From NCBI GenBank assembly GCA_950295325.1, contig OX485807.1:51364440-51428439 (forward strand): DNA of 64,000 nt, given 5' to 3'. Under the pieces are notes generated by a model. It worked only from the letters and a program-made list of their open reading frames with translations, ran no database searches and had not been told where the DNA came from. A program made the position numbers and the translations under genes. Below, piece after piece: positions 16,378-64,000 of this stretch; the stretch's first letter is position 1; each line of letters begins with the position of its first letter. The DNA is from Polytrichum commune (Eukaryota > Streptophyta > Polytrichopsida > Polytrichales > Polytrichaceae).

Positions 16378-19300
16378 ATGATGGCAACCAGGTACGTAGT
16401 GATCATCCCACGCTTGCCAGTTGAGTTTTGAACCTTGTTATGTGCATTTACTGTTCTTTGATGTTAAGAGGAACAGAGCCTCTACGATGGTGGTTTACGT
16501 GATGAAACTGATGGTGCAGGGCGGACCAAGTGGCGGAACCTAAACACACAGTTTTTTTGAGTCACAATAGTGCTCAGAAGGACTTTGTTGAGCAGCTTTG
16601 CGTCGATCTTGAGAGGGTGTCGTACAACCCCTTCTTTGATAAAAGGCCTGCGAGCTTGGAAAAGGGTGCCCCTTTTCCAGGCCCTCTTTTTGATGCCATT
16701 CGAAAATGTCGGCTGTTTGTTGTTGTGCTGTCCGAAGACTTTTTTACTAGCACAAAATGGCCAATGATGGAGCTCGTTGCAGCTGTAGCAGCCCAGAGTG
16801 AAAACCCCAACCTCAAGTTACTCCCTCTCTTTTTCAAAATTTCTGTTCCAGAATTCAAGGCGGAGGAGAGGCGTGCCAATTGGTTTGAACGTTGGACGGA
16901 TTGGGCGTCTGAGACTTCGAGAATCGATGTAACGAAGTGGAAAGAAGCTTTGAAGGTGGTGGAGGTGTGGAATGGCATCCCATTTACGGCGGGCATGGGG
17001 GAAGTCGCGTACAGGAAGCTCATTGTTGAAACTGTTTGCAGAATTTGCCCGAACAGCATGTTTGATGTTTCTCGTGTCGTCGGGAGGGAAAGATTCCGTC
17101 AGGTAGTTATGCATCTTTTGCGCATGCTAGACTCCTCTTACATTGAAGTGACACATCGCAAGTATACATCATCCTGTCCTAGCAAAAATAGGATGTTGTC
17201 TGGAATAAGCTAAACTTGTGGCTTTTTGTTTTTCCTACCTCAAGGTTTGGTCTTTTCTCTCCTGGTTTCCTTGTGTCAAAAGTCACATGTTAGGGCACAT
17301 ATTATTCAACAATTTTCTTGAGTCTTTCTGTTGCCTCTAGAGATGTAGCAGAAACTCAAGGGAAGGATCTACTCTGTGGAACTGATATGGTCAGGCAGTG
17401 GGGATGTCATGCATGGAAGGTGGCTCCTTCCCAAGCAGATAGATTAATCTGGATAGTCCTTGGTGAAAGTGCTCGCCACCATTTGGCTCTTGCGGCATAT
17501 GTGATTTGTTTTCTATTTCATTGTAGTAGTTTGAATGTTTCTTTTTTATTAGCATTGTATTGAGAAAGTCACTTTTAGAAGCTTTGGATGACTATCTCCC
17601 CTGATTCCTAGTCTATGGATTAACTGAACCGGTTACCATTATTTATAAAAGCTTTGAATATCTATCTCTCTTATTCTTATTATTGGAAACCTGTAAGTGT
17701 TATTTGAGCATCGATACTTACAAGGATAGCATGCTCTTATAAGCAACTTACGCTCTTGTCACTATTGAGAGAATAGCTTGAAATTGTCGGAAATGAACCA
17801 AGGATAGAATGAGGTACATTGCTTATTCCATGATGCATTTGGCAATCTGTGTTGTTCCATGCCTGGTTATGGTAGGAGATGGGAACCAAAGCATTGTGAG
17901 CATTCTACTAGAATTCCTTAGAATCTAAGACAAAAGTCATCGATCTGCCTAGTATCTTCTTGAAACCATGAGGAGCATCCAATCCTGGGACATAGCTGAC
18001 CGGTTGACAACATGTGGTCTCTGACAGATTGTTTCTGATAAGTTTGATGAACTTAAACGTGAAACCCAATGGGGCCTCAAAGCTCCTCATATTGGTTTGT
18101 TTGGCATGGGCGGTCTTGGGAAGACAACTTTATGTAAGGTCATGTGCAACCATTACTTTGCGGAATTTGGAGGAAATGTCATTCACATCGACCTGAACTT
18201 GAATACCATTGTGGACCATCAAAAAAGGGTGATTGCCAAATTAACCGGAGCAACTCAAACGATAATCGATCCCGATGAGGTGAGAAATGACTTGAGGTTT
18301 TATTAACAAAGCCACTCCTAGGGTAAGGAGGAATTTATGATTTTGAGCACCTTCTGATTTTTCTCCATAGATGCTGGTTTGTAAAGCAGGCATGGAATGC
18401 ATTATTGTTATCAACGATTGGATTACCGATGAAATACCTAATAGTGGGATTTGGGGATTGGGATGAATGAGAATCTTAAGTTGCAAAAGATGATATTTCT
18501 TATTTGTAAGGAAGGTTATGTGAAGATGACCCCATTTTCTTAGAGAGGCAAACTTGAAGTATGGTGTCAGATGAAGCACCACTAACAATGACCTCTTCAA
18601 ATTTTCTTAGGGACATCTGTGGCTGAAAAATGTCCTCTCCATGCACAAGGTTTTTCTTGCTCTGGACAATGTGACAGATGCCCCAGAAATTTTGGAGGAA
18701 GTGTTGTGGTATTTATCGGTCTCCTATGGCGTGCGAAGTATGATATTGGTAACCTCACGCAGTCTTGAAGTTCTTCTTTCTAAGCTCCGAATTGCAAAAA
18801 ACCATTGCTTGGAGGTCCCAGATCTAAATGAAACGGAGGCAATTTCTTTATTCCTTCGAGGAGATCCATCAAACAAGCATCTGGAATTTTCTTCTTATAG
18901 TGATGATGAGAAACTCCGAGTTGTGGAGGGTGTTCGGAAGGCGCTTTTCCCAAGGACATCAAGATTAGACGAGCAATATCACCCATTGGCACTGAAGACA
19001 CTTGCGTCTAGGTTGGGTAAACTCATCGATAAACCAGAGCAATGGCGGAAGACCCTAGCAAATTTGGATTTGAAATTTACCCCACACAAGGTTCACCCTA
19101 TCTTCTCAATCTTGGGATCCTCCTTTGAGATGTTACCAGAGGAAGAGAAACTCATCTTTATGGATGTAGCCCTTTTCAAGCCATCTTGTGCGATTGTCAA
19201 GGAGGATATTTGCAAATGGTTAAGCCTTGTGCACCGGTTGCCATACGAAGGCATTGAAGAACATGTGAGTTTTACCAATGAAGTTTGAAACAGAGGATTT

Positions 19301-22283
19301 GTGATTCAATTGATTTTGAGCATGACATGAAATGGATGGGCTTTGAATAGTGTATGTTTTTCTGGTTGTGCAGCTCAGCAGTTTAAGAACAAAGTCCCTC
19401 TTAGAAGCAGGTTTAGGTGAAGAGACAAAGGCCATAAATATGGACGAAGGTGCAAGCACATCTATTGGAGGCCTGCAAGAGATGGAAATGTACTCAGGTT
19501 CTGAGGTTGTGGTGCACGACTTGTATGTTGAGTTTGCAAAGCTGGAGTGTAAGAGGGGTTCTCTTGACGAGATTGAGTGTTTTGCTCATGAAGACTGCGA
19601 TGATGTCCCACGTCAAATGCAAGGATCTCCATCAAGAGGTCGATTTTGGCCTTTGAAGAGGATTGCCCTTATTCGCGGAAGGTTGCCGAGTCTGAGTGTA
19701 TGCAAGTTTGGTAAATATTACAAGAATGTGGCGGTGTTGAAGTTGGAATACCTTACAGCACTGAAGGACTTGAACATGGAGGGTATGATTTGTTTGGCCA
19801 GCGTCGACATTTTCCATTGCGATGAGCTCCATAACATACGTGGATTGGATAAACTAACGAGGTTGGTATGGTTACGAGTGGCAAGGTGTGAGAAGTTGGA
19901 AGTTCTTCCCAATTTGCAAAATCTACATTTTTTGAAGCATGTTGAGGTCCGAAATACAAGCCAAGAACTATGTCCAATCATCTCCAACTGCCCACAGTTG
20001 CATGAGCTAAGATTGAGCAGTCACTACGCTGTCAAAGATCTCTCCAAAATTCAAGCATTGCATGCCCTACGAAAGGTGATGATCGAGTGGTGTCCTAAAC
20101 TTTGTACACTGCCAATGCTCCAAGGATTTTCGCAGCTGCATGAGTTGTATGTATTGGACTGTCCTGAACTTGGTGGAGTGATGGAGATTGGGGGTCTGGT
20201 AGCTTTGAGAAAGCTACATTTAAGAGGGATCAACATAACAGAGTTGGGTGGTGTTGGCTTGATGAGAGACTTGTGCCATCTCATATGTGAGCATTGTCCC
20301 CTTCTACATAAGTTGTCTGACAAGATTGGTGCATTGACAAAATTAACGTTGTTAAGGTTATCAAAGTGTCCTAAACTTGATGGGGTGTTGGCAGTGGGAA
20401 GCCTACTAGCTCTTGAGAAGTTGCATTTGACGGACATTGCAATCACAGAGTTAAATGGGGTTGGCAAGTTGAGATGCTTGTGCGAACTTGTTTGGTGTAC
20501 AGATCCCATCCGAATCCCCAAATTGAGTTGTCAGCTGTCGGATGTGGGTGGATTGACAAAATTGACAAAATTGCGACAATTATGCATACTTGCCTATTGT
20601 AAGAGCTTCAGCTTTGTAGATTTTAGACCTTTGCAACGCATCAGGAACTTTCTACAAGGTGAGGTGCATTGCGACATTGGTGATGTGAATCATGTGATGG
20701 AAATTTTGACACAACAGGCTATGGTCGTTGTCGATGATACACAACAGGCTATGGTTGTTGGAGTTGACAGAAGAATGTTGTCTTTTCTGATGGTGCAAAG
20801 CGCATTGGATGTGGTTGAAGAAATTGAACTTGGCAATGACATCATTGTTAATGCCAATAAGATTCCACATGTGACTGTCAGGGACATGGAATTCCAAACA
20901 ATACTACGGTTCTTCTATGGAGTTAGTCTCGACCATGTGAATGAGTGCGTCGCAGGCATAGGAAGTCCCATGAGGATTGTTTCCTTTACAGAAAACATTT
21001 TCCAAGGCCCAAATAAACCTGACCTGAGTACAATGCATTTCAGGAACATTGCTGAATTGTATTTGGATGACCTTGAGATTGGGCATTTGCAACTCAGTGG
21101 GATGAAATGTTTGTCAAAATTATACATCCGTAGATGCAAGAGATTGGTGAGGCCAGTTACACTTGAGGCCATGATGGCATTGGAAGACGTCGAAATGGAA
21201 GAGTGTGAATATTTGGATGATAATTGTATTGCTCTTAGGATTCGAGATTGCGCACAGCTTCGGAAGGTCACAGTTATGGAATGCAACAAGCCGAGGACTA
21301 TAGTTGTTTCTAAATTTGGGAGTAGTCATGACTCTCAGAACCTGCCTATTGAAGACATCTCCAACGTTCAAGCGACAAGTCCTTGGGTGAGTATTGGGTG
21401 GTGTGACAATATCCTCGAAGTTGATTCTTATGGAAGGAAAATTGGGTTGTGGATCTTTCAGTCGGATATTATGGGCGTTGTTCTTGAACCTGAAAGGGGT
21501 GTGATGGAAATTATGACACGATATATTGATTCCATTGGCATTACAAATGATCCAAGCCAATTACGTTGTTGGACATGTGTAGTATTGCAAAGTACATCTA
21601 CTTTGCCAGAAGAAGATTTTATGAATAAATTCGATGCTATTCTAGGGGGGTCTTCTATTCCCAATATTACCATGAAATTTGCGAAGCAAGAATTTGAAAC
21701 AACACTATATTTCTTCTATGGAGTACTTTGTGAGCAAGTCCTGCAATTCCTCCCTGACAATTGGAGGCCCATAAGAGTTGTCTCCTTCACAGGGGACAAG
21801 TTTCAAATCCTAAACCAAGAGGATGTGAATTTGCAACTTGGCGGGATCACCACACTTTGCTTAAATGGCATGGAGTTTGACAATGTGCTCCAAAGATTAG
21901 AATGTGTAACTAGATTTTATATCTGGAATGTAACATCAAGACCCATCTACTTGAATATCATGATGGCATTGGAATACGTAAAGTTGGTGAATGTAGTATT
22001 CAAAGGGGGTGGCCCAGCACTATTGATTGAACATTGCCCACGACTTCGAGAGGTGGTACTTGAAAAATGCGTCAATGTGGTCTTCGTGTGGAATAGGGCC
22101 AGTGAGTGCCTGCAGAAGCTATTTATTAAAGATTGTCCAGATCTTCTTGACTTTTGTGATGATGACCCATGGGGATTTTACCCCAAGCTTGAAGTGCAAG
22201 TCATAAATTGTCCACTGTGGCATCGTTCTATTGAGCAAAGACGGAGATCTAGATCACTACTTTATAAATGGGAGGCGCTTTGA
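16378..22283 (+). CDS. NLR1: TIR-NBS-LRR immune receptor, five exons
   Basis: Intracellular pathogen sensor of the TIR-type NLR class. Exon model from open frames and GT-AG signals: 16378-16391, 16520-17102, 18028-18279, 18611-19264, 19374-22283, joining to about 1,470 codons. A 14-nt first exon (ATGATGGCAACCAG|GTACGT, acceptor GTGCAG) supplies the ATG; the TIR frame alone has none. The other three introns are phase 0. Domains: TIR about residues 14-165 (FLSHNSAQKDF, conserved Glu in KWPMMEL near 89), P-loop GMGGLGKTT (225-233), kinase-2 FLALDN (about 298-303), RNBS-B SMILVTSR (about 326), GLPL-type HPLAL (about 407), MHD-equivalent VHD (about 548), LRRs about 590-930, then a duplicated post-LRR module (about 940-1200 and 1210-1455). 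No stop or frameshift in the model. Intron 2 (925 bp) is the longest. LRR-like decay after the stop suggests the ancestral protein was longer. Confidence 0.85.
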
Positions 22284-44272: not shown

Positions 44273-46718
44273 TGTAGTTAGCTTTTTAGGGGTTGGGTTC
44301 ACACTCTTAAAAACCCCAGGGAAGACTAAATGAGTGTCAGATTGATCTTTAGTTGTCACAATAAGATTGATTGATAGGTTAAAACGATTATGGAATGGTT
44401 TTGATGAACAATTAACTGAAGGATTATTCTTCCATGTATATTTCTTTATCACTTCTCACGACGAGTTAGAAAATAATGGTTAAGATACACAGTCATAATT
44501 ATCTTCTTCACAAAGACATTTAAAACCTTTAATGTTCATAAATTAATTATATTATTTTGATGATTAACAAAACCTAATTACGAACGACGAGAACGGACCC
44601 TAAGCGAACGAGTCTGCAGCGTGCAAACCGGCCTAGAGTAATGAGTCAAATAGCGAGTCAAGAGTCTAGATTCCAAGTCACAAGTAGCGAGTCTAGTTAC
44701 CAGTAACAATTCCAAGTGACGAGTCTGGGTGTGCCAAGGGAAGCGTCTAGACACATAAGCGACCTGTCAGGTTTAGGTTATATACCTGCCTTCCACGCTC
44801 ATCCCAATCGATATGGGATAAGTTACGCCCAACTCTCTCTTACATCTTCTACTCCTACGTGCGTCTTCTTCTCGCGGCTGTTTCGCGGAACTAATTCCTT
44901 CACTCCTTCACAATCTGAGACACACTCCCAGCAGACTCCATCCCTGCGAACGATTACTTCTACGAATTCTCATAGGCAAGTGGAAACTCATAATCAAACC
45001 CCCTTTATCTGTGAAAGCAAAGGTCTCCCAACAGAAATGCTCACATTAACAACTCTCCCAGTTTTGAGAAGAGGACTCTATTCGTTGTGCACAAATAAAT
45101 TACACTAAGAAGATGAATTTTCCCCGTGGAGAGTGCACAGCTCTAATTCAAACACATTGACATTTATGAAAGATCCACACTCCTTTCCCAGGACTATACT
45201 TCACACGATTTCATCACAGTGCTCTCGTAACAAGTACGAGGATAATTCTCTCCTTTCTCAGGAAGAATCCCTCACTTTCTGTTCGTTGTCTAAGTCAGAT
45301 TCAAGATAATCTCTGAATCTTGATGCATGTATTAATTTGAGACAAGAGAAGTTCTCAGTTCGCCAAAGCTGGTGACATATCCTCTTTCACAGAGATATGC
45401 ACTACTCTTGCTCTCAATTTACATGATCCACATAGACTCAGGTTAGGTAGTGGTAGCTCCTTTCTCAGGAGGTTCACAATCAGTTGAAACTTTGAAATTT
45501 CCTTCGCTTACTTAGTTGAATAAACCTCTCTCAGCCAAAGAGAATGATTTCCTGATCTACCCCCGGGTTGAATCGCTAATTTCCTTTCACAGGAAATTCC
45601 CGGAGTTTACATTCATACATAAATTCATTCACAATGTGACATTTAAGACGTCAAGTTCTCTCCTGATTATTCCCCAATAATATTTCAAGGTAGGGACAAT
45701 TCTGTCTCTCCGTCCTCGATAAGATCACTGTAATTTCTCTCACCAATTTCACATACGGGGATGATACAGGTATTCACAGTGGAATTTCACATTCCATTTG
45801 TGAGACATTGACATGAATAATAATATTGAAATTAGGATACTCCACTATGTCGCGCAGTTTCAGTTCTGTCTTACAACCACATAGGCTAAGACACACATGA
45901 GAGAGTAAAAATGCACTGGTCCATACAAAGTTAGAATTCCTCAAATATTTTCCACTCAACCGAGATGTCACAATCAAATTCTATGACATGCTCTTTCTCA
46001 TGAGTTTAAGATAACACTACCAAGTTTTTACTTCTTTTCACGGGAGTAGTGTAATTGAATTAATCACTGGATTCTTCCCGAACCAGGGATTTTCACTTGC
46101 TACACATCCACTTCATCTTGATGATTCAGAATCTTAAGAGACTATCCAAGAAATTATGGACTAATGTGTTCTCAGTACACACATAAGATTCTCACACAAT
46201 AACATTCAAGAGTTTCACACCCTTGAATCTAATCCCACCCGAGTAACACAACATTCCACTTACACAGTCACAAACAACTTGTACAAATGATATATCCGAA
46301 TGTACACTTTATATATTCAAAAGTATGATTTACAGTAAGTTCAAGGGTTTCACACCCTGGAGATAGGAGAGATGACAAAAACAGGTTCACTCTCTTCACG
46401 AGAGGAGGATCAAAAATTACACTACTCTTTGTCTTGTCCTCTTCCTCCTTCCTCTTATCTCTTTCTGTCTCAAAAGGTAGTGTCCTACCCTAGCTAAGAT
46501 ACCAAGTGCTTTCCTATTTGTCACATGTTAATTACATGTCTCCTGATATCTTCTAAACTATGGGCAGCAAGGAAAATTTCTCTATTACTTGCATGTTTCC
46601 ACTTCCGAGTGACTAATTGCCTAACATTTCACTATTTTATTAGTCTCAAGTAAGATTTGTCGTTCATTTACCTTCCGAGACTAAAATTTAGGCATTCTGG
46701 CCAAAAAATAGCACCACA
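44273..46718. mobile_element. 2.4-kb LTR-like insertion inside copia RNase H
   Basis: Starts TGTAGTTAGC and ends GCACCACA (TG...CA ends), flanked by a perfect 5-bp duplication GTAAC (44268-44272 and 46719-46723). Removing it joins the RNase H reading frame exactly. No terminal repeats within it and no recognised genes, so it is probably a long solo LTR of another family or a non-coding LTR element. The interior has many spaced copies of CTTTC(A/T)CAGGA-like motifs. A TATA-like TTATATACC lies at about 44779. The 130-codon plus frame at 44716-45108 carries no domain. Confidence 0.85.
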
Positions 46719-48047
46719 GTAACCTTGAAGGCGATTTTCCTCCCCTTGTTTAAAAAACAAGCCTAAGCCGGGAAATTTTCGAATGTACCTAAGAATGTGT
46801 TTGGCAACCTGAAGATGAGCTTCTTGTGGGTTCTGCATGAACCTACTGACAACGCTGACGGCATGAGTGATATCAGGGCGAGTCTTAGTAAGAAAGAGGA
46901 GTTTGCCTACTAGCATTCTATATAGAGTGGCATCGACTGAAGGGGTAGAAGAATTCTTTGACAAAGTCGTACCTTCAGGAAGAGGAGTAGAAACGGGGTT
47001 ACAATTTTCCATGTTGAACTGTTGTAGAATGCTCTGGGCATACTCCGTTTGGTGCATGTAAAGCCCAGTGGAAGTTCGATCAAATTGAACACCAAGATAG
47101 CGTTGGATAGGGCCAAGATCATTGGTTTTGAAAGTTAGATGAAGATGGCGTTTTAGTTGAGAGATGAGTTGAGGATTACTTCCTGTGATAAGAATATCAT
47201 CTACATAGACTAAAAGAGCTATGGTGTCAGGACCAACATGGGTAAAGTAAAGATTGGGATCAGAATAAGACTGGGTAAGATGCCAAGCAAGAAGAGCAAT
47301 ATGAAGTCGAGCGTACCAAGCGCGAGGACTTTGTCGAAGGCCATAGAGTGACTTGTGTAATTTGCAGACGAAATGTTCAGTCCCGGGTGTGACGAATCCG
47401 AGTGGTTGACGCATGTAAACTTCCTCTTGGAGAATGCCATTTAGAAAGGCTGTGAGGACGTCTAGCTGATGAAAGGGCCAGTTGAGATGGATTGCAACAG
47501 CAATGAGAATGCGGATTGTTTCCCATCGGACAACAGGAGCAAATGTGTCAAGAAAGTCGATGCCATCCTGTTGTTCAAAACCACGAGCCACAAGGCGGGC
47601 TTTGTAGCGTGTGGGACTGCCATTAACACTGGGTTTAATTTTGTATACCCATCTCGATGAAATAGCTCGCTTGCCAGGGGGAAGCGGAACAAGTGTCCAA
47701 GTATTGTTACTGCGAATGGATTCGAGTTCGGTTCGCATGGCCTTCTGCCAATGAGGAAGGAGATGAACTTGCTGAAAAGTGAGGTGATCGGTGTTGACTT
47801 CTGTCGAGTGATCATCGAGTTCGATGTGAGCGACAAAGTCTTGGAGGTGGCGTGGAAAACGCCTGATCCGATCGGATTGTCTGAGGGTATCAGAAATTTG
47901 AGGTGGTGGAAGAGTCGATGATGACACGGAATCTTGAGCTGGTTCCGATTGAACGGGTTCTGAGAGTGTCGGGGAAGGCGGAGCTGTTGGTTGAGGTGTG
48001 TGATGTGGACTTGGTTCCTGAGGATAATCTAAGGGAAAAGAAGATGA
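46719..48047 (-). pseudogene. Copia reverse transcriptase
   Basis: Frame open from the stop at 48048 through the linker (Pro/Ser-rich) and the RT domain. Motifs: ALPHW-type LLPHWQKAMRTELESI, NNTWTLVPLPPGKRAI, the RLVARGFEQQ block, FAPVVRWETIR, QLDVLTAFLNG, SLYGLRQSPRAWY and the catalytic LLVYVDDILITG, then TRPDITHAV and LRYIRKFPG. This is the standard plant copia RT, and the catalytic Asp pair is intact. It ends inside RNase H where the nested element begins. Upstream of the linker, VLLYENVSRDIF resembles the last residues of a copia integrase, placing the deletion just before it. Confidence 0.92.
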
Positions 48048-48204
48048 CTAATGTTCAAGAAAAGTTCGATGTTCTTCTGTGTAAGTCGGTGCAGAGAGAT
48101 TGTTGTCGGGGGGTACCTCCATTGAAGTAGAATTGTGATTTGCATGAGGAGGAGTATCTTCATCAATGAAGATATCCCTGGAGACATTTTCATACAAAAG
48201 GACT

Positions 48205-49663
48205 TCAAGACTTGAAGACTAAGGTTTTATCTTGATCTGCTAGGGATCCAACGCTCAAGAGATTTTTTGTTATACCAGGGGTGTACAGAACATTTGAAAT
48301 GTTTATTTCTTCAGACATGAAGCGAACATCAATATTTCCAACTCCGGTGACAGAGTGATTCTGTCCACCGGCTGACCTAACCTGTGCACCGTTAGTTCGG
48401 TGAAGGGAAGAAAAGAATGGAAGGATCACCAGTTACATGGTGAGTGGCCCCTGAATCAAGGTACCAAGAGCTATTCTGCTTGGGTTTCTCTACCAAATTG
48501 AGCTCCACTAAGCAGGCATCTACTACCTGATCAGCAGATTCGAAATTTTCTTCCTTCTGCTCCTGATTGAAGAGATCCAGTGGTTCTTCGATGTGATGTG
48601 CTTGAGCGTTGAGTGTCCTGGTGCGCCGTTCCTGTAATCGGTGCTCATACTCCTTCATTCTATCAAGGATGGATTTCAGGTCGCATTCCCGTTCGAAGTG
48701 ACCATCCAAGCCGCAGTAGTTGCACTTTTCGTTTCTGGGTCTCTCGGGTCCTCTCGGCCTGAATCTGATTTGCTGAGCTTGTGAGTTGCGAGCTTGTGTC
48801 GATCCAGGGTGTCCCGAGAAATGTCCGAACCTTGAGATGGTTCCTCCCGATTCCAGTGTTGGGTAACGCGATCCTCTGATCGGCGCTAGATCCAGGTACC
48901 GCGATCCTCCCGACTCCGGGTGGCGTCTGTAGCTATAGGAGTGTCTTTGTGGTGCCGAGACATGCTGGTGTCTTGATGCATTTGACTGTGGCCACCTCTG
49001 TCGATGCAGGAAGAAGGCCTCTCCCTCGTCTTTGTCTTGATTCTCTATCTTGATGGCAGTCTCTTCAGAGATCAGCTTGGCTTCAAGCTGTTCGTAGGTG
49101 GGAAGCGTCTGCCCCGAGATCTGCATCCGTTTAAAGATTTCATACTCCTTTGGTAGGTGTTTCAGTGTATAATACACTATTATATCCTCAGGGATATTGA
49201 CATCCACCTCCTCCAAGAGATTAGCAATTTCTCTAGCCTCGGTTAAATGTGCATCCATCGAAATGGAGTCAGTTTTTCGAAGTGCAAAAAACTTATCAAT
49301 GAGCATGACACGCCGGGGACCACTGTCTGATTCATACCTTCTCTTTAAGCCAGTCCAACATTCGTAAGGGTCGTGGTATCGGCGAAGAAGTTTGAGTGCG
49401 TTGTTCTTGGCGTTGCTGTTGATGATGTTCATCACCTGCTGCCTTGCCATCTTCTCTTCTTCGCTCATGGATTTGCTGGGCGGTGTGATGCAATATCAAA
49501 ATCGTCCATCCTTCTGTAGGAGGTTCTTCATTCTGTAAGCCCATACCCCAAAGTTGTTTCCACCCTCAAGGTGGTAGGTTTCAGGAAGACCACTATCCCC
49601 TGTCATGACAATGCGACGGCCGTCACCTGTGTGTAAACTACTTTCTGTCTCTATGATCGACAT
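48205..49663 (-). pseudogene. Copia gag-protease with nonsense and frameshift
   Basis: The start is the ATG at 49661-49663 (MSIIETESS), followed by the copia gag signature YHLEGGNNFGVWAYRM. An in-frame TGA at 49496-49498 stands where copia gags usually have Trp. The frame then runs to 48392 with a UBN2-type gag core (LKLLRRYHDPYECWTGLKRR), a CCHC zinc knuckle (CNYCGLDGHFEREC) and the aspartic protease motif WYLDSGATHHVTGD. A frameshift near 48425 moves the rest of the protease (VLYTPGITKNLLSVG) to the frame ending at 48205. Gag packages element RNA and the protease cleaves the polyprotein; neither would be made intact here. Confidence 0.9.
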
Positions 49664-55332: not shown

Positions 55333-55980
55333 CCAATTTTCAATCACTTCCTTCTACTTATTGTGAACAAAACACAACCACTCCATCAAATCCGGCTTGA
55401 ATTTGTAAGTTCTTGATGGGGAAAGCACAGCTAAATCCATAAATAACTCTTGCTCCCCTTTAGGCAATCGGTCGAAATTATTTTTGAGAATGTTGAACAA
55501 AGGATTTTTTGGTTCTTGCAAATAGCTCGAGTCTTTGAGTTTCTGTAAGTCCTTCTTCCAAACCGAAGGTTCTTTACCTCCATATTGTAAGAAAACACCC
55601 AAGGCTTTCAATGATAATGGATGATAATGCGAACCTTGACCTTCGCCCTTGCCAAAGTAAGAACGTTTGATACACTCCTCAATAGCATCCACATCTTCCG
55701 TATTTTCAAAAAAAATTCCATTTGCTGCATGGTACAAAAACATATTCCTTGCATCATCCTTGTCAAGTTTTGGCATCTCAAGACATGCACTTTCATCCAC
55801 TTTAAGACTTATGAAAGTCTTTCTGAACCGGGATGTTATAATCACCCAACTTCCCTCAACAAAAGGTGCTCGAAGAAATAATTTCCCTTGTTGCAATGAA
55901 TCAAAATCATCCCAAACGTTGTCTATAGTTAAGAAGCTTTTTTTCTTCCAAATCTGGAATATCAAAAGGACATCTTCACA
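55333..55980 (-). pseudogene. NLR2 exon 4: NB-ARC kinase-2 to ARC region
   Basis: Acceptor TATTTGCAG, then CEDVLLIFQIW and kinase-2 SFLTIDNVWDD, RNBS-B SWVIITSRF, and a GLPL-type HPLSLKALGVFL, then NILKNNFDRLPKGEQELFMD, aligning along its whole length with NLR1 exon 4. A TAG near 55354 interrupts it, and a donor NW|GTATGT follows at 55332. NB-ARC domains bind ADP/ATP as the NLR switch. Confidence 0.88.
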
Positions 55981-56226
55981 CTGCAAATACACCCAAATCA
56001 TGAGTGGAAGGCACAATTAAAGGCATTGGGTTTCAAAGCATTGTACATCTTCTCCTAGAATTAAAATAGATGTCAATAGAATGCTAAGAACATTGGGAGT
56101 TGCATCCTTAGTTGCCTTCATTTGCGTATAATCTTGAGGTAAGCAATAGTTGTCTTACTAACTCATGAAGCTCCCAAGCTTAACATTGGATTCATGAAAA
56201 TGTTTATGACTTTAAAGAACAAATAC

Positions 56227-61200: not shown

Positions 61201-61737
61201 AAGAAGAAGAAGAAGAAGAACTCCGGTCCCTATTAGGGGCCGGAGTGAATAAAGTGTCTATTCGTAGGACAACCGTGGCCGTACCCCAGGGTAGCGGCGT
61301 TGGGTGTAATACTACTTCACCCTTTGCAGGGAGTAGACACTATGTTAGTAACTAATGTTTTAACCGGTTAGACCGGGGGGGGGGTATGTAGGGTGTATGG
61401 GTTTAATTTAGAGTTTTGTGGGTTTTGCTACTTTGTTTGAGACTAGAAGCGTGCTTATTTGTTTGGAGTATAAGTGGTGGTTGGTTGTATGGTTGGTCGC
61501 CAAGTCATGGTTCCAAGGTTGGTTGGATGAGGACGTGCGTGTTGTATTAATACGGTCCGGGTTCGATTCGCGTTGAATCCGTCTGAGCGTGTTAGTGCAA
61601 TACACTTTGACTTGGTGCTGCAAGTGAGTTAATCATAGGCAGGAAAGTTATGCCAGCCAGCCGGCTACTCCCCGCCTTTCTGAGCTATAGGTGGTAACTT
61701 CAATAACTAGTGGTTTGACCACTACCCCTTTCTAATT
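61201..61737 (-). other. LINE 3' untranslated region and (TTC)n tail
   Basis: Between the LINE stop codon and a minus-strand (TTC)n run (61201-61221). It contains two inverted segments close to the tail: CTCCGGTCCCTATTAGGGGC pairing back on itself (about 61221-61246), and AGTGTCTA with TAGACACT (about 61254 and 61327). 3' hairpins next to a microsatellite tail are typical of LINE RNA recognised by its own RT. The exact 3' end is inferred. Confidence 0.5.
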
Positions 61738-64000
61738 TTAATTATGATTTTGTAGGTCTGTGATGGGTTGTCTATTTTCTATTCGACTTTTGTGGATTAG
61801 TATTGAGTGTGCATATTGTATGGCAATTATGTTAAGTTGTTTGAATGTGTTCCTAATTTGTGATGTAGGGAGTTTAAGCTTTGTTTCAAGTTCGTTCATT
61901 GAGGGAATGTGCGTTGTGGCTCTAGCGCCCGATGCTAATACAATAAGTGGGGCTACGTTCCATCCTTTTGCGATAATATTATTTATGAGTGGTTGATATT
62001 TTGTAATTTTTTGATTTATGGTTTCAGTGGAGAATCTGTCATTACAGTATGTGAATTCTATGAATTGAACTGTAATTTCCGGTGTGGGTGCTTCTGGTGG
62101 TGGGGATTTATATGGGTGTCCTATTATGCATAATATGTCATGTTTGAGCCTAGCGTTGCAGTGACATCGTTGGGTGGTACATGTGCATGGAAGTAACCAT
62201 GCTGGTACTGTGTTTTCTTGGGGGAGCTCATTATATGTACCTGCATTCATGAGTGTGTAGTATCTTGTTTTTTTGTTTGAGATGAGAAGTTTGCGTATTT
62301 CCCATACGGCTTTGTTATGCCTTTTGGTTATTAGTGCGTGAATGTGTTGTTGTTTACATTTGAGGAGTACATGTAACCATGTGTCTGCTTCTTGCGCGTT
62401 GCATATGGGGCACGTATGTGAGGGGTATGCATTTCTTCCGAAGAAGAGTTGTTTTCTAGCATGTCCCATGTATTGTCCGGTTCTAAATTTGATTAGGCAT
62501 GTTTTTTGTTTGTCCGTGATAATCGGGTTGTGCCAAAAATCATTTGATAGTATTTTGTCAATATCTTTGTTGTCTAGCCACTTGTGGAGTTGATGTGTTT
62601 GGGTTGCTATGATGGATAGGTTAAGTTTTTTGTCATGTTTAGCGATGTATTTACCAAGGTGTCGGATGGGGCCTTTATCTGGTGTTTCTTGCATTGAATG
62701 CCACCAGTCTCTCTGTAGGTAGTATGGCGTAGGGTGTGCATGTTCATATGTGGTTGTAGCATCTCTATGTTCGAGTTCACAACCCATTTTGGCTAGTTTG
62801 TCCGCTTGTTCGTTACCACTGATGTTTGTGTGGGCTTTGACTTTATGGAGTGTAGTGGTTTGTGAGCGGGATTGCAACATTTCAATTATAGATTCGAGTA
62901 TCTTTTTGTCCGGGTGGCTATTGTGTAGGGTTGGATGTTTTATTTGTGTGTTTAATAAGTATAGCACATTAAGGCAGTCTGTGAAGATGTGTGCCGGTTC
63001 GTTGCGATATGTGGTAATGAGGAGGCGGAGGGTATGGTGTATAGCCATTAGTTCGGCTCTTAGTATATTTTGGAGTCCGGGTAGTCTTTCTGTGATTTTG
63101 AGGTTTTTGAAAGGGTTGTATATACCATATCCGGCTTTTTCTCGTTTCCAATGTCCTTGGGTTGTTTCTTTGGGTGGTATGAATGATCCGTCTGTGTAAT
63201 AGCAGAATTGTGGTTGATATTTAAGGGGAAGGCATATATCTTGGTTGGTGAAGGTGGAGACAGCAATAACTTGGGCCGTAGGTGGGGGAGGGTATATGAG
63301 TTGTGACCATTTCTTACTACGGTTTACTAGGGTATTTATGGGTGTGGGTGGTGCCGTTGTGTTAAATGTGGTGGGTAATTGTAAGGTATTGCTAATAATG
63401 TCCATTTGGTGCGCGTAATTTCCCGGGCCGAGTGACGTATTTTTGTGATGTATACATAGTATGCGGATGTCACGGCTTTCTATGCGTGGTTCAATTCGTA
63501 ATTCGGGTGGTATAGTGGGTTCATCGTATATAATGGTGTCCGCTTTGAAGTGTGTTATGACATGTGAATCTGGGAAAGGGCCTATATGAGGTTGAAGGTT
63601 TTGGTACCAGTTCGGGTCGGTTGTTATGAGTATTGTAGTTGTATCTGGGTTATTTTGGGCTGCAAGTCTTGCCCAGTGTAGGGCTTGTTGGGCGTCTGCT
63701 TCCGTATGTGGATGGGCATACCCATTCCCTATCCATTTATGTTGGAATGTTGTTCCTATTGAACCGAATACTTTGTCTCGGGAAAATGGGGAGGAAAATT
63801 GTGTTAGCGTGGTAGGGCATGTTACAGGGGACGAAAAATAGGAGTGGGTGATGTGGAAGGAGTTGATGAGGTGTTCAATGATGGCATTAGGGAGGGTGTA
63901 TTGTGCGAGTTTGAGAGGGTCATTTTTGGGCATTCTATATTTGTACCTTTGGTACAACCACGCCACTTCTTTTTCAAATGTTTGTATGGGGGGTTCTAAG
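61738..64000 (-). CDS. LINE ORF2 3' part: MTase-like, RNase H, CCHC and RLE-like domains
   Basis: Open to the right edge (the displayed GTG start at 63966 is internal). Numbering from there: residues about 25-175 have FGSIGTTFQHKWIGNGYAHP and ATILI-type strands resembling a Rossmann methyltransferase. RNase H is at 255-395, with YTDGS (D259), RAELMA (E305), IFTDCLN (D330) and NEQADKLAKMG (D389), all catalytic acids present. A CCHC finger is at 519-537 (CPIC, H532, C537). The C-terminus at about 600-735, LKHDILCIIG, FIEFTYCNDRF, KITKYQPLI and GWNV.PLIV..GAR, fits a restriction-like endonuclease (D610, E637, K653 or K656). Such order suggests a Dualen/RandI-type LINE. The RT should lie off-window. 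No stop or frameshift in 754 codons, so possibly recent. Confidence 0.8.
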   Translation of the reverse strand, partial: LEPPIQTFEKEVAWLYQRYKYRMPKNDPLKLAQYTLPNAIIEHLINSFHITHSYFSSPVTCPTTLTQFSSPFSRDKVFGSIGTTFQHKWIGNGYAHPHTEADAQQALHWARLAAQNNPDTTTILITTDPNWYQNLQPHIGPFPDSHVITHFKADTIIYDEPTIPPELRIEPRIESRDIRILCIHHKNTSLGPGNYAHQMDIISNTLQLPTTFNTTAPPTPINTLVNRSKKWSQLIYPPPPTAQVIAVSTFTNQDICLPLKYQPQFCYYTDGSFIPPKETTQGHWKREKAGYGIYNPFKNLKITERLPGLQNILRAELMAIHHTLRLLITTYRNEPAHIFTDCLNVLYLLNTQIKHPTLHNSHPDKKILESIIEMLQSRSQTTTLHKVKAHTNISGNEQADKLAKMGCELEHRDATTTYEHAHPTPYYLQRDWWHSMQETPDKGPIRHLGKYIAKHDKKLNLSIIATQTHQLHKWLDNKDIDKILSNDFWHNPIITDKQKTCLIKFRTGQYMGHARKQLFFGRNAYPSHTCPICNAQEADTWLHVLLKCKQQHIHALITKRHNKAVWEIRKLLISNKKTRYYTLMNAGTYNELPQENTVPAWLLPCTCTTQRCHCNARLKHDILCIIGHPYKSPPPEAPTPEITVQFIEFTYCNDRFSTETINQKITKYQPLINNIIAKGWNVAPLIVLASGARATTHIPSMNELETKLKLPTSQIRNTFKQLNIIAIQYAHSILIHKSRIENRQPITDLQNHN

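Follow-up and report, generated by a model that had tools for sequence, protein, structure and literature searches.

LINEs of the Dualen/RandI type, which Kojima and Fujiwara reportedly treated in 2005, possess a cysteine protease. As described in excerpts of two publications (PMC4640811, PMC8226300), they unite APE, RLE, RT and RNase H in a single element. Methyltransferases borne by retrotransposons are mentioned in a partial text of PMC5890265, namely Dam-like enzymes in DIRS elements and C5-cytosine enzymes (DNMT) in LINE ORF1 or DIRS Pol, and non-LTR retrotransposons bearing 2A peptides are the subject of another excerpt, with D[V/I]ExNPGP as the published motif (PMC4981915). PCIF1 itself, in the excerpted part of one survey, occurs only in eukaryotes and stands apart from other adenine methyltransferases (PMC8868631).

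The window analysed here, the whole stretch of 64,000 nucleotides from Polytrichum commune, holds at its end the 3' part of a LINE polyprotein frame (61738..63999, minus strand; 753 aa in translation, open at the window edge). This LINE has APE, RLE, RT and RNase H in one element in common with Dualen/RandI, and a Josephin match upstream of the APE in the relative P0160 (Pleodorina) parallels the Dualen cysteine protease. Beyond what the excerpted Dualen/RandI descriptions contain, the comparison being one by description, it carries a PCIF1-type domain between RT and RNase H, a chromodomain-like module before the methyltransferase, and 2A-like repeats. It resembles the DIRS and DNMT-bearing elements in being a retrotransposon with a methyltransferase domain, but unlike in those elements the domain is of PCIF1 type and lies inside the RT-holding frame. 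The 2A-like peptides are comparable to the D[VI]ExNPGP-type peptides of other non-LTR retrotransposons, although a copy here has up to four of them, many reading H or Q instead of E, and the element is Dualen-like. No description of a PCIF1-type domain in a LINE was found among the open-licence literature matches listed; fusions with retroelements may be mentioned in surveys of the adenine methyltransferases of eukaryotes. The most fitting name for the element is Dualen/RandI-like LINE with a PCIF1-derived domain; architecture and algal relatives suggest membership in Dualen proper.

The element and its copies in the genome

In the genome, where the window occupies G000:C5:51364440-51428439, the frame of the window copy reaches its full extent of 949 aa beyond the window edge, and a frame change and in-frame stops lie upstream of it. 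The LINE is multicopy, with at least 61 matches to the frame in the 407.8-Mb assembly, 35 of them uninterrupted by a stop. From these 61 we fetched 20 copies, chosen for score and long frames and therefore biased toward intact ones. A search with Pfam PF12237 gave 150 scored matches in the assembly, all above the cut-off, of 697 candidates, in frames of up to 2924 aa, and eight further copies were taken from among the best of them; none of 14 control genomes had a PF12237 match. Two loci (G000:C3:874360-876618 and G000:C24:11573-13831) show equal score and equal frame length, and one may duplicate the other in the assembly.

One copy, L010, contains a single 2169-aa frame with APE (PF14529, 5.3e-7, above the cut-off), RT (2.5e-26), a chromodomain-like module, a PCIF1/CAPAM-type methyltransferase (PCIF1_WW, 1.6e-9), RNase H (8.3e-15), CCHC and RLE, its C-terminus showing the CCHC and then KPDIL...FIEFT. 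An in-frame stop directly precedes this frame, and a frame of 648 aa lies upstream of that stop. An earlier note on the window, made from its letters only, had held that RNase H plus RLE fits Dualen/RandI and had proposed following the frame past the window to the RT; the extension to 949 aa in the window copy, and the APE-RT-RNase H-RLE order with its RT in the L010 frame, bear this out by architecture. Taken together, the copies support a layout that opens with an N-terminal region bearing 2A-like peptides and continues with APE, RT, the chromodomain-like module, the PCIF1-type methyltransferase domain, RNase H, CCHC and RLE; the chromodomain call in it is weakly supported.

The RNase H domain of the window copy (62779..63207, minus strand; frame residues 265-407; PF00075, E 3.2e-15) retains its catalytic-residue motifs. 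Motif comparison delimits a C-terminal region from CCHC to RLE (61741..62412, minus strand), which comprises a CCHC zinc knuckle C-x2-C-x9-H-x4-C (62356..62412, minus strand; residues 530-548) and the PD...E stretch of the RLE (62050..62145, minus strand; residues 619-650). The RNase H, CCHC and endonuclease-like motifs that the earlier note had listed are thus all present, as is its quoted pattern FGSxG / GYAHPH / TDPNWY in the translation. The RNase H, RT and APE motifs of the window copy are those common among the copies; the RLE is the exception, as it reads KHDIL, whereas 18 of the 20 fetched copies have KPDIL and one has KPDII. Alignment column counts show the CCHC followed by the PD and E/D of an RLE, and an RLE profile run against the PDB gave no match to R2. 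The C-termini of P0011 and P0016 (2/7 members) have a sub-threshold Pfam match to L_protein_N (best E 2.4e-4), which starts after the PD, spans the E motif of the RLE, and may reflect a shared PD-(D/E)xK fold.

Upstream of the APE, one to four 2A-like motifs per locus are found in 18/20 loci, and the two loci lacking them (L027, L028) are both 5'-truncated. We counted 40 such motifs in sense frames and none in antisense, codon shuffles containing a mean of 0.05. Nine loci have the strict D[VI]ExNPGP form; since the published motif has E, the H and Q forms are regarded as variants whose activity is only putative. Several of the peptides in L009-L026 follow a YYTWNNS...LILL context, and single 2A-like motifs also occur in 7/201 relatives' proteins (e.g. 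P0090, P0093, P0108, P0123, P0159).

Comparison of copy ends defines a 3' UTR of 540 nt including the stop codon (61201..61740, minus strand), which runs to a shared 3' end made of a terminal hairpin (61221..61245, minus strand; from the 3' ends of the 20 copies and folding) and a (TTC)n tail at 61201-61220. The 3' arm of the hairpin and (TTC)n form the terminus of all 20 copies, the 5' arm being altered in some, such as L021. With 3' ends picked from BLAST match ends, the distance from the last codon to the 3' end is 538-553 nt in 18 copies, the other two being L011 with 592 nt and L012 with 247 nt. Folding of the 3' end gave -23.2 kcal/mol (z -6.3) for L010, z -2.2 for the window copy (96 nt) and z -1.9 for L012. 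Among the five copies with a 5' junction, exact matches of 14 nt (L021), 14 nt (L027) and 16 nt (L028) flank the element; that of L027 overlaps the element by up to 3 nt, so that target-site duplications of 11-16 nt are present in 3/5 copies, and none were found in L010 and L012. The 3' flanks vary between copies and no single target site was seen. Retrotransposition is supported by the shared 3' end, the 5' truncations and these duplications, and the element would move by target-primed reverse transcription.

Elsewhere in the window, matches at 16515-22283 (plus strand) and 55354-56013 (minus strand) comprise a TIR domain (4e-16), a large frame with LRRs and a weak NB-ARC match below cut-off (5e-4), and would mark a plant-type disease-resistance neighbourhood, as judged from these matches. 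At 46668-49492 (minus strand) lies a Ty1/copia element whose RVT_2 (2e-75) and copia gag (3e-19) occupy different frames. In the protein collection, P0028, a member of the window LINE family, is recorded as the RNase H of a metagenome bin assigned to Candidatus Nitrosocosmicus; it is probably eukaryotic DNA binned with the archaeon.

The PCIF1-type domain and its active-site loop

Just before the RNase H, the earlier note had seen a methyltransferase-like region of 150 residues and of PCIF1/Dam type. The methyltransferase assignment stands, with a greater length of about frame residues 1-215 (63355..63999, minus strand; from PF12237, the structure model and PCIF1 matches) and a start before the window edge; the affinity is to PCIF1, by PF12237, profile and Foldseek, and not to Dam. 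The Pfam family PF12237 (PCIF1_WW), which despite its name represents a CAPAM-like methyltransferase domain instead of a WW domain (excerpt of PMC7641849), matches residues 5-94 with E 3e-9 and 37.1 bits (curated cut-off 31.1), and exceeds the cut-off in relatives as well. A family profile matched zebrafish PCIF1 at 1e-13 over the whole methyltransferase domain, whereas the near-family profile alone reached only 1.1e-3 for zebrafish and 0.28 for human PCIF1, and PCIF1 was not among the PDB matches of the window protein as single query. Foldseek with the predicted structure returned six matches at E <= 0.001, all six to PCIF1, with loose superpositions (query TM-scores 0.35-0.46 in one search, 0.29-0.33 in another); PCIF1 came well ahead of other methyltransferases both there and in VIA. 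The fold check proposed in the earlier note thus gave the Rossmann methyltransferase domain of PCIF1 as the best match of the prediction. Like PCIF1/CAPAM, the window domain is a methyltransferase domain by sequence and predicted fold, but structure and profile matches span only about human residues 417-668, with the helical cap-binding and WW domains of PCIF1 outside, and the LINE domain is embedded in a retrotransposon. We regard the PCIF1 relationship of the domain as firm.

In the alignment with relatives and PCIF1, the motif AHPH (63706..63717, minus strand) forms a rewritten catalytic loop, where PCIF1/CAPAM has NPPF and many relatives have NPEY. The earlier note had put AHPH in the place of NPPF, which is correct for the loop and shifted by one residue in register: the motif starts one residue ahead of the catalytic Asn position, so that H96 and P97 stand at the Asn and Pro of NPPF/NPEY. 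Compared with the relatives (eight pieces in the NPEY alignment, P0131 and P0143 being left out), the loop is possibly one residue shorter and the residue replacing the aromatic one is uncertain, whereas the loss of the Asn is certain. The sequence A-H-P is present in 20/20 genomic copies with synonymously varying codons, and GYAHP is retained in 8/8 further copies. Across alignments made of the window protein or a piece of it with matches from a set of 70, A-H-P is invariant in 27 sequences, and in 32 sequences A and H show no variation and P almost none. His-Pro is found in 44/49 lettered rows of the near set, 10 rows with gaps being left out of this count, and the remainder read HL (2), HH, HS and MP. 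According to an excerpt of PMC10544176, mutation of the NPPF loop inactivates PCIF1, and the Asn553/Phe556 mutants APPA and SPPG serve as inactive forms. Because of this effect, and because the Asn is His here, the window lineage is predicted to be without methyltransferase activity, catalysis having been lost, which agrees with the earlier suggestion of a possibly inactive domain in that both the catalytic Asn and the aromatic residue are absent.

Relatives and the RT tree

A protein search with the RT yielded 137 proteins at E <= 1e-10, including some of the green algae Haematococcus, Pleodorina and Cymbomonas; with phmmer, the RT matched R2 at 1.8e-25 and the best human L1 ORF2p entry at 6.9e-14. 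Precomputed annotation gives PF12237 in 41 among the 120 relatives listed, two of them from Cymbomonas tetramitiformis. Our local profile, run on the distant set (P0084-P0201), found the domain in 77/118 proteins, including those of Haematococcus (motif WNVP), and the distant domain-bearing proteins show an RT identity of about 30-43%. The order APE-RT-MT-RNH-RLE is present in 53/119 proteins (118 relatives and L010, whose methyltransferase domain fell outside the architecture scan and is evidenced by its Pfam match). The domain, which the earlier note had thought unusual for such an element, is therefore widespread in the related group. Among the 77 domain rows, 26 have NPEY and one SPPF, and Asn stands at the first place in 35; the other 50, one of them a gap row, have neither NPEY nor SPPF, a variation of the catalytic motif that would be compatible with both loss and change of function.

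All 71 domain-bearing tips of the RT tree (FastTree, midpoint root, 118 tips of 137 RT rows, seven distant domain-bearing proteins being absent and several deep supports low) fall in one group of 96 (SH 0.82). The window element groups there with elements of Haematococcus and Pleodorina. The 86 distant tips of this group carry the domain in 66/66 cases where RNase H or RLE was found; 16 distant tips without it end 1-733 residues past the RT, the domain starting at a median of 624, and are mostly too short to judge its absence. Complete proteins of the group have APE and RLE together, and the RT phylogeny, another check named in the earlier note, thus places the window family in a clade with an RLE. 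Outside the group the domain is found in 0/22 tips, which are RLE-type and APE-type elements, and P0180, one that lies outside, has APE, RNase H and RLE and lacks the domain. As NPEY is scattered over the group and occurs in all nearest neighbours of the window family (P0084, P0086 and P0118; SH 0.96), it is probably the ancestral state, with several losses since. P0118 additionally has a stretch of C5-cytosine DNA methylase (PF00145, 3.5e-8; residues 2004-2077) between its PCIF1-like domain and RNase H.

The segment between RT and methyltransferase domain varies. PHD fingers are listed in only 9/120 relatives, and in the three of these nine that were scanned, one lies above cut-off between RT and methyltransferase domain (3/3); P0118 has a match below cut-off at this place, and none was seen there in P0169, P0086 and P0160. 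At the same site, the window family has a segment of about 80-90 residues whose predicted structure is three strands plus a helix, as in the model of P0066 (residues 11-89: three strands, one helix; block pLDDT 69-93). A faint Pfam Chromo match (2/11 members, best E 0.027), with no PDB profile match and no fold match for the piece, points weakly to a chromodomain-like module before the methyltransferase domain.

Constraint on the domain and its possible role

We consider it likely that the domain was an ancestral N6-adenine methyltransferase of Dualen-like LINEs, which in the window lineage would be retained as a pseudo-enzyme beside a possible chromatin-reader module. A chance resemblance of some generic Rossmann-like domain to PCIF1, without common descent, could account for the PDB search in which the window protein alone did not list PCIF1 and for the low TM-scores, yet it seems very improbable in view of the profile E-value across the whole methyltransferase domain, the Pfam matches above cut-off in window frame and relatives, and the lead of PCIF1 over other methyltransferases. 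That the domain has remained catalytically active, with His96 replacing the catalytic Asn and a changed chemistry or specificity, would agree with the non-random motif, invariant in the 27 aligned sequences, and with the fold, which the model predicts to be retained; we find this quite doubtful, as NPPF-loop mutants of PCIF1 are inactive in the excerpt cited above and the aromatic residue is also absent.

A third possibility is that the ancestral methyltransferase has lost its function here and is a decaying passenger, kept only for spacing in the polyprotein. The rewritten loop would suit such a fate, as would the many further relatives that lack NPEY in differing ways, and the PCIF1-like domain has the highest median dN/dS between copies (NG86) of all measured segments, 0.134. 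This value is nevertheless far below 1, and three other segments come near it, the RT thumb with 0.102, the chromo-like module with 0.116 and the APE-RT linker with 0.129; the lowest values are those of RT (0.056), RNase H (0.062), APE (0.083) and RLE (0.087). These medians stem from 97-134 of 190 possible pairs per segment, with stop codons skipped and pairs dropped that had <70% of codons, dS <= 0.1 or dS >= 2, and are approximate, since saturation partly affects dS near 1 and the pairs are non-independent. All measured domains are under purifying selection. The PCIF1-like domain is thus constrained, though least of the measured segments, and its low dN/dS argues for a retained function without catalysis and, more weakly, against a mere spacer. 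Decay is further contradicted by the constancy of A-H-P among the in-genome copies and of His-Pro in the near set, and we consider it unlikely.

Returning to the retained pseudo-enzyme, NPEY relatives would act as N6-adenine methyltransferases on nucleic acid met at insertion, be it element RNA, cDNA or target DNA, and in some of them the methyltransferase adjoins a PHD finger. In the window lineage, replacement of the catalytic Asn and the aromatic residue would have abolished methylation, and the domain, lying between the reader-like part and RNase H, may be retained as a module for binding or scaffolding; with the catalytic residues absent, this role is only a guess. More tentatively, we propose that a PCIF1-type methyltransferase is ancestral to the whole group of Dualen-like LINEs, in algal and plant-like hosts and frequently with a PHD or chromodomain-like chromatin reader as its neighbour, that the NPEY members of this group methylate adenine while they insert, whether in their own RNA or cDNA or in target DNA, and that the window lineage has a selected pseudo-methyltransferase still binding the same nucleic acid.

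The domain fills the RT-RNase H stretch of Dualen-like elements and is absent from the excerpted Dualen descriptions compared here. A large group of LINEs that carries the PCIF1 catalytic domain would be a possible route for the travel of such domains, and its members offer a natural series of active sites, from a near-intact NPEY to the rewritten AHPH. They also provide a testable case of LINEs with a nucleic-acid-modifying domain in the RT frame, in some beside a chromatin reader.
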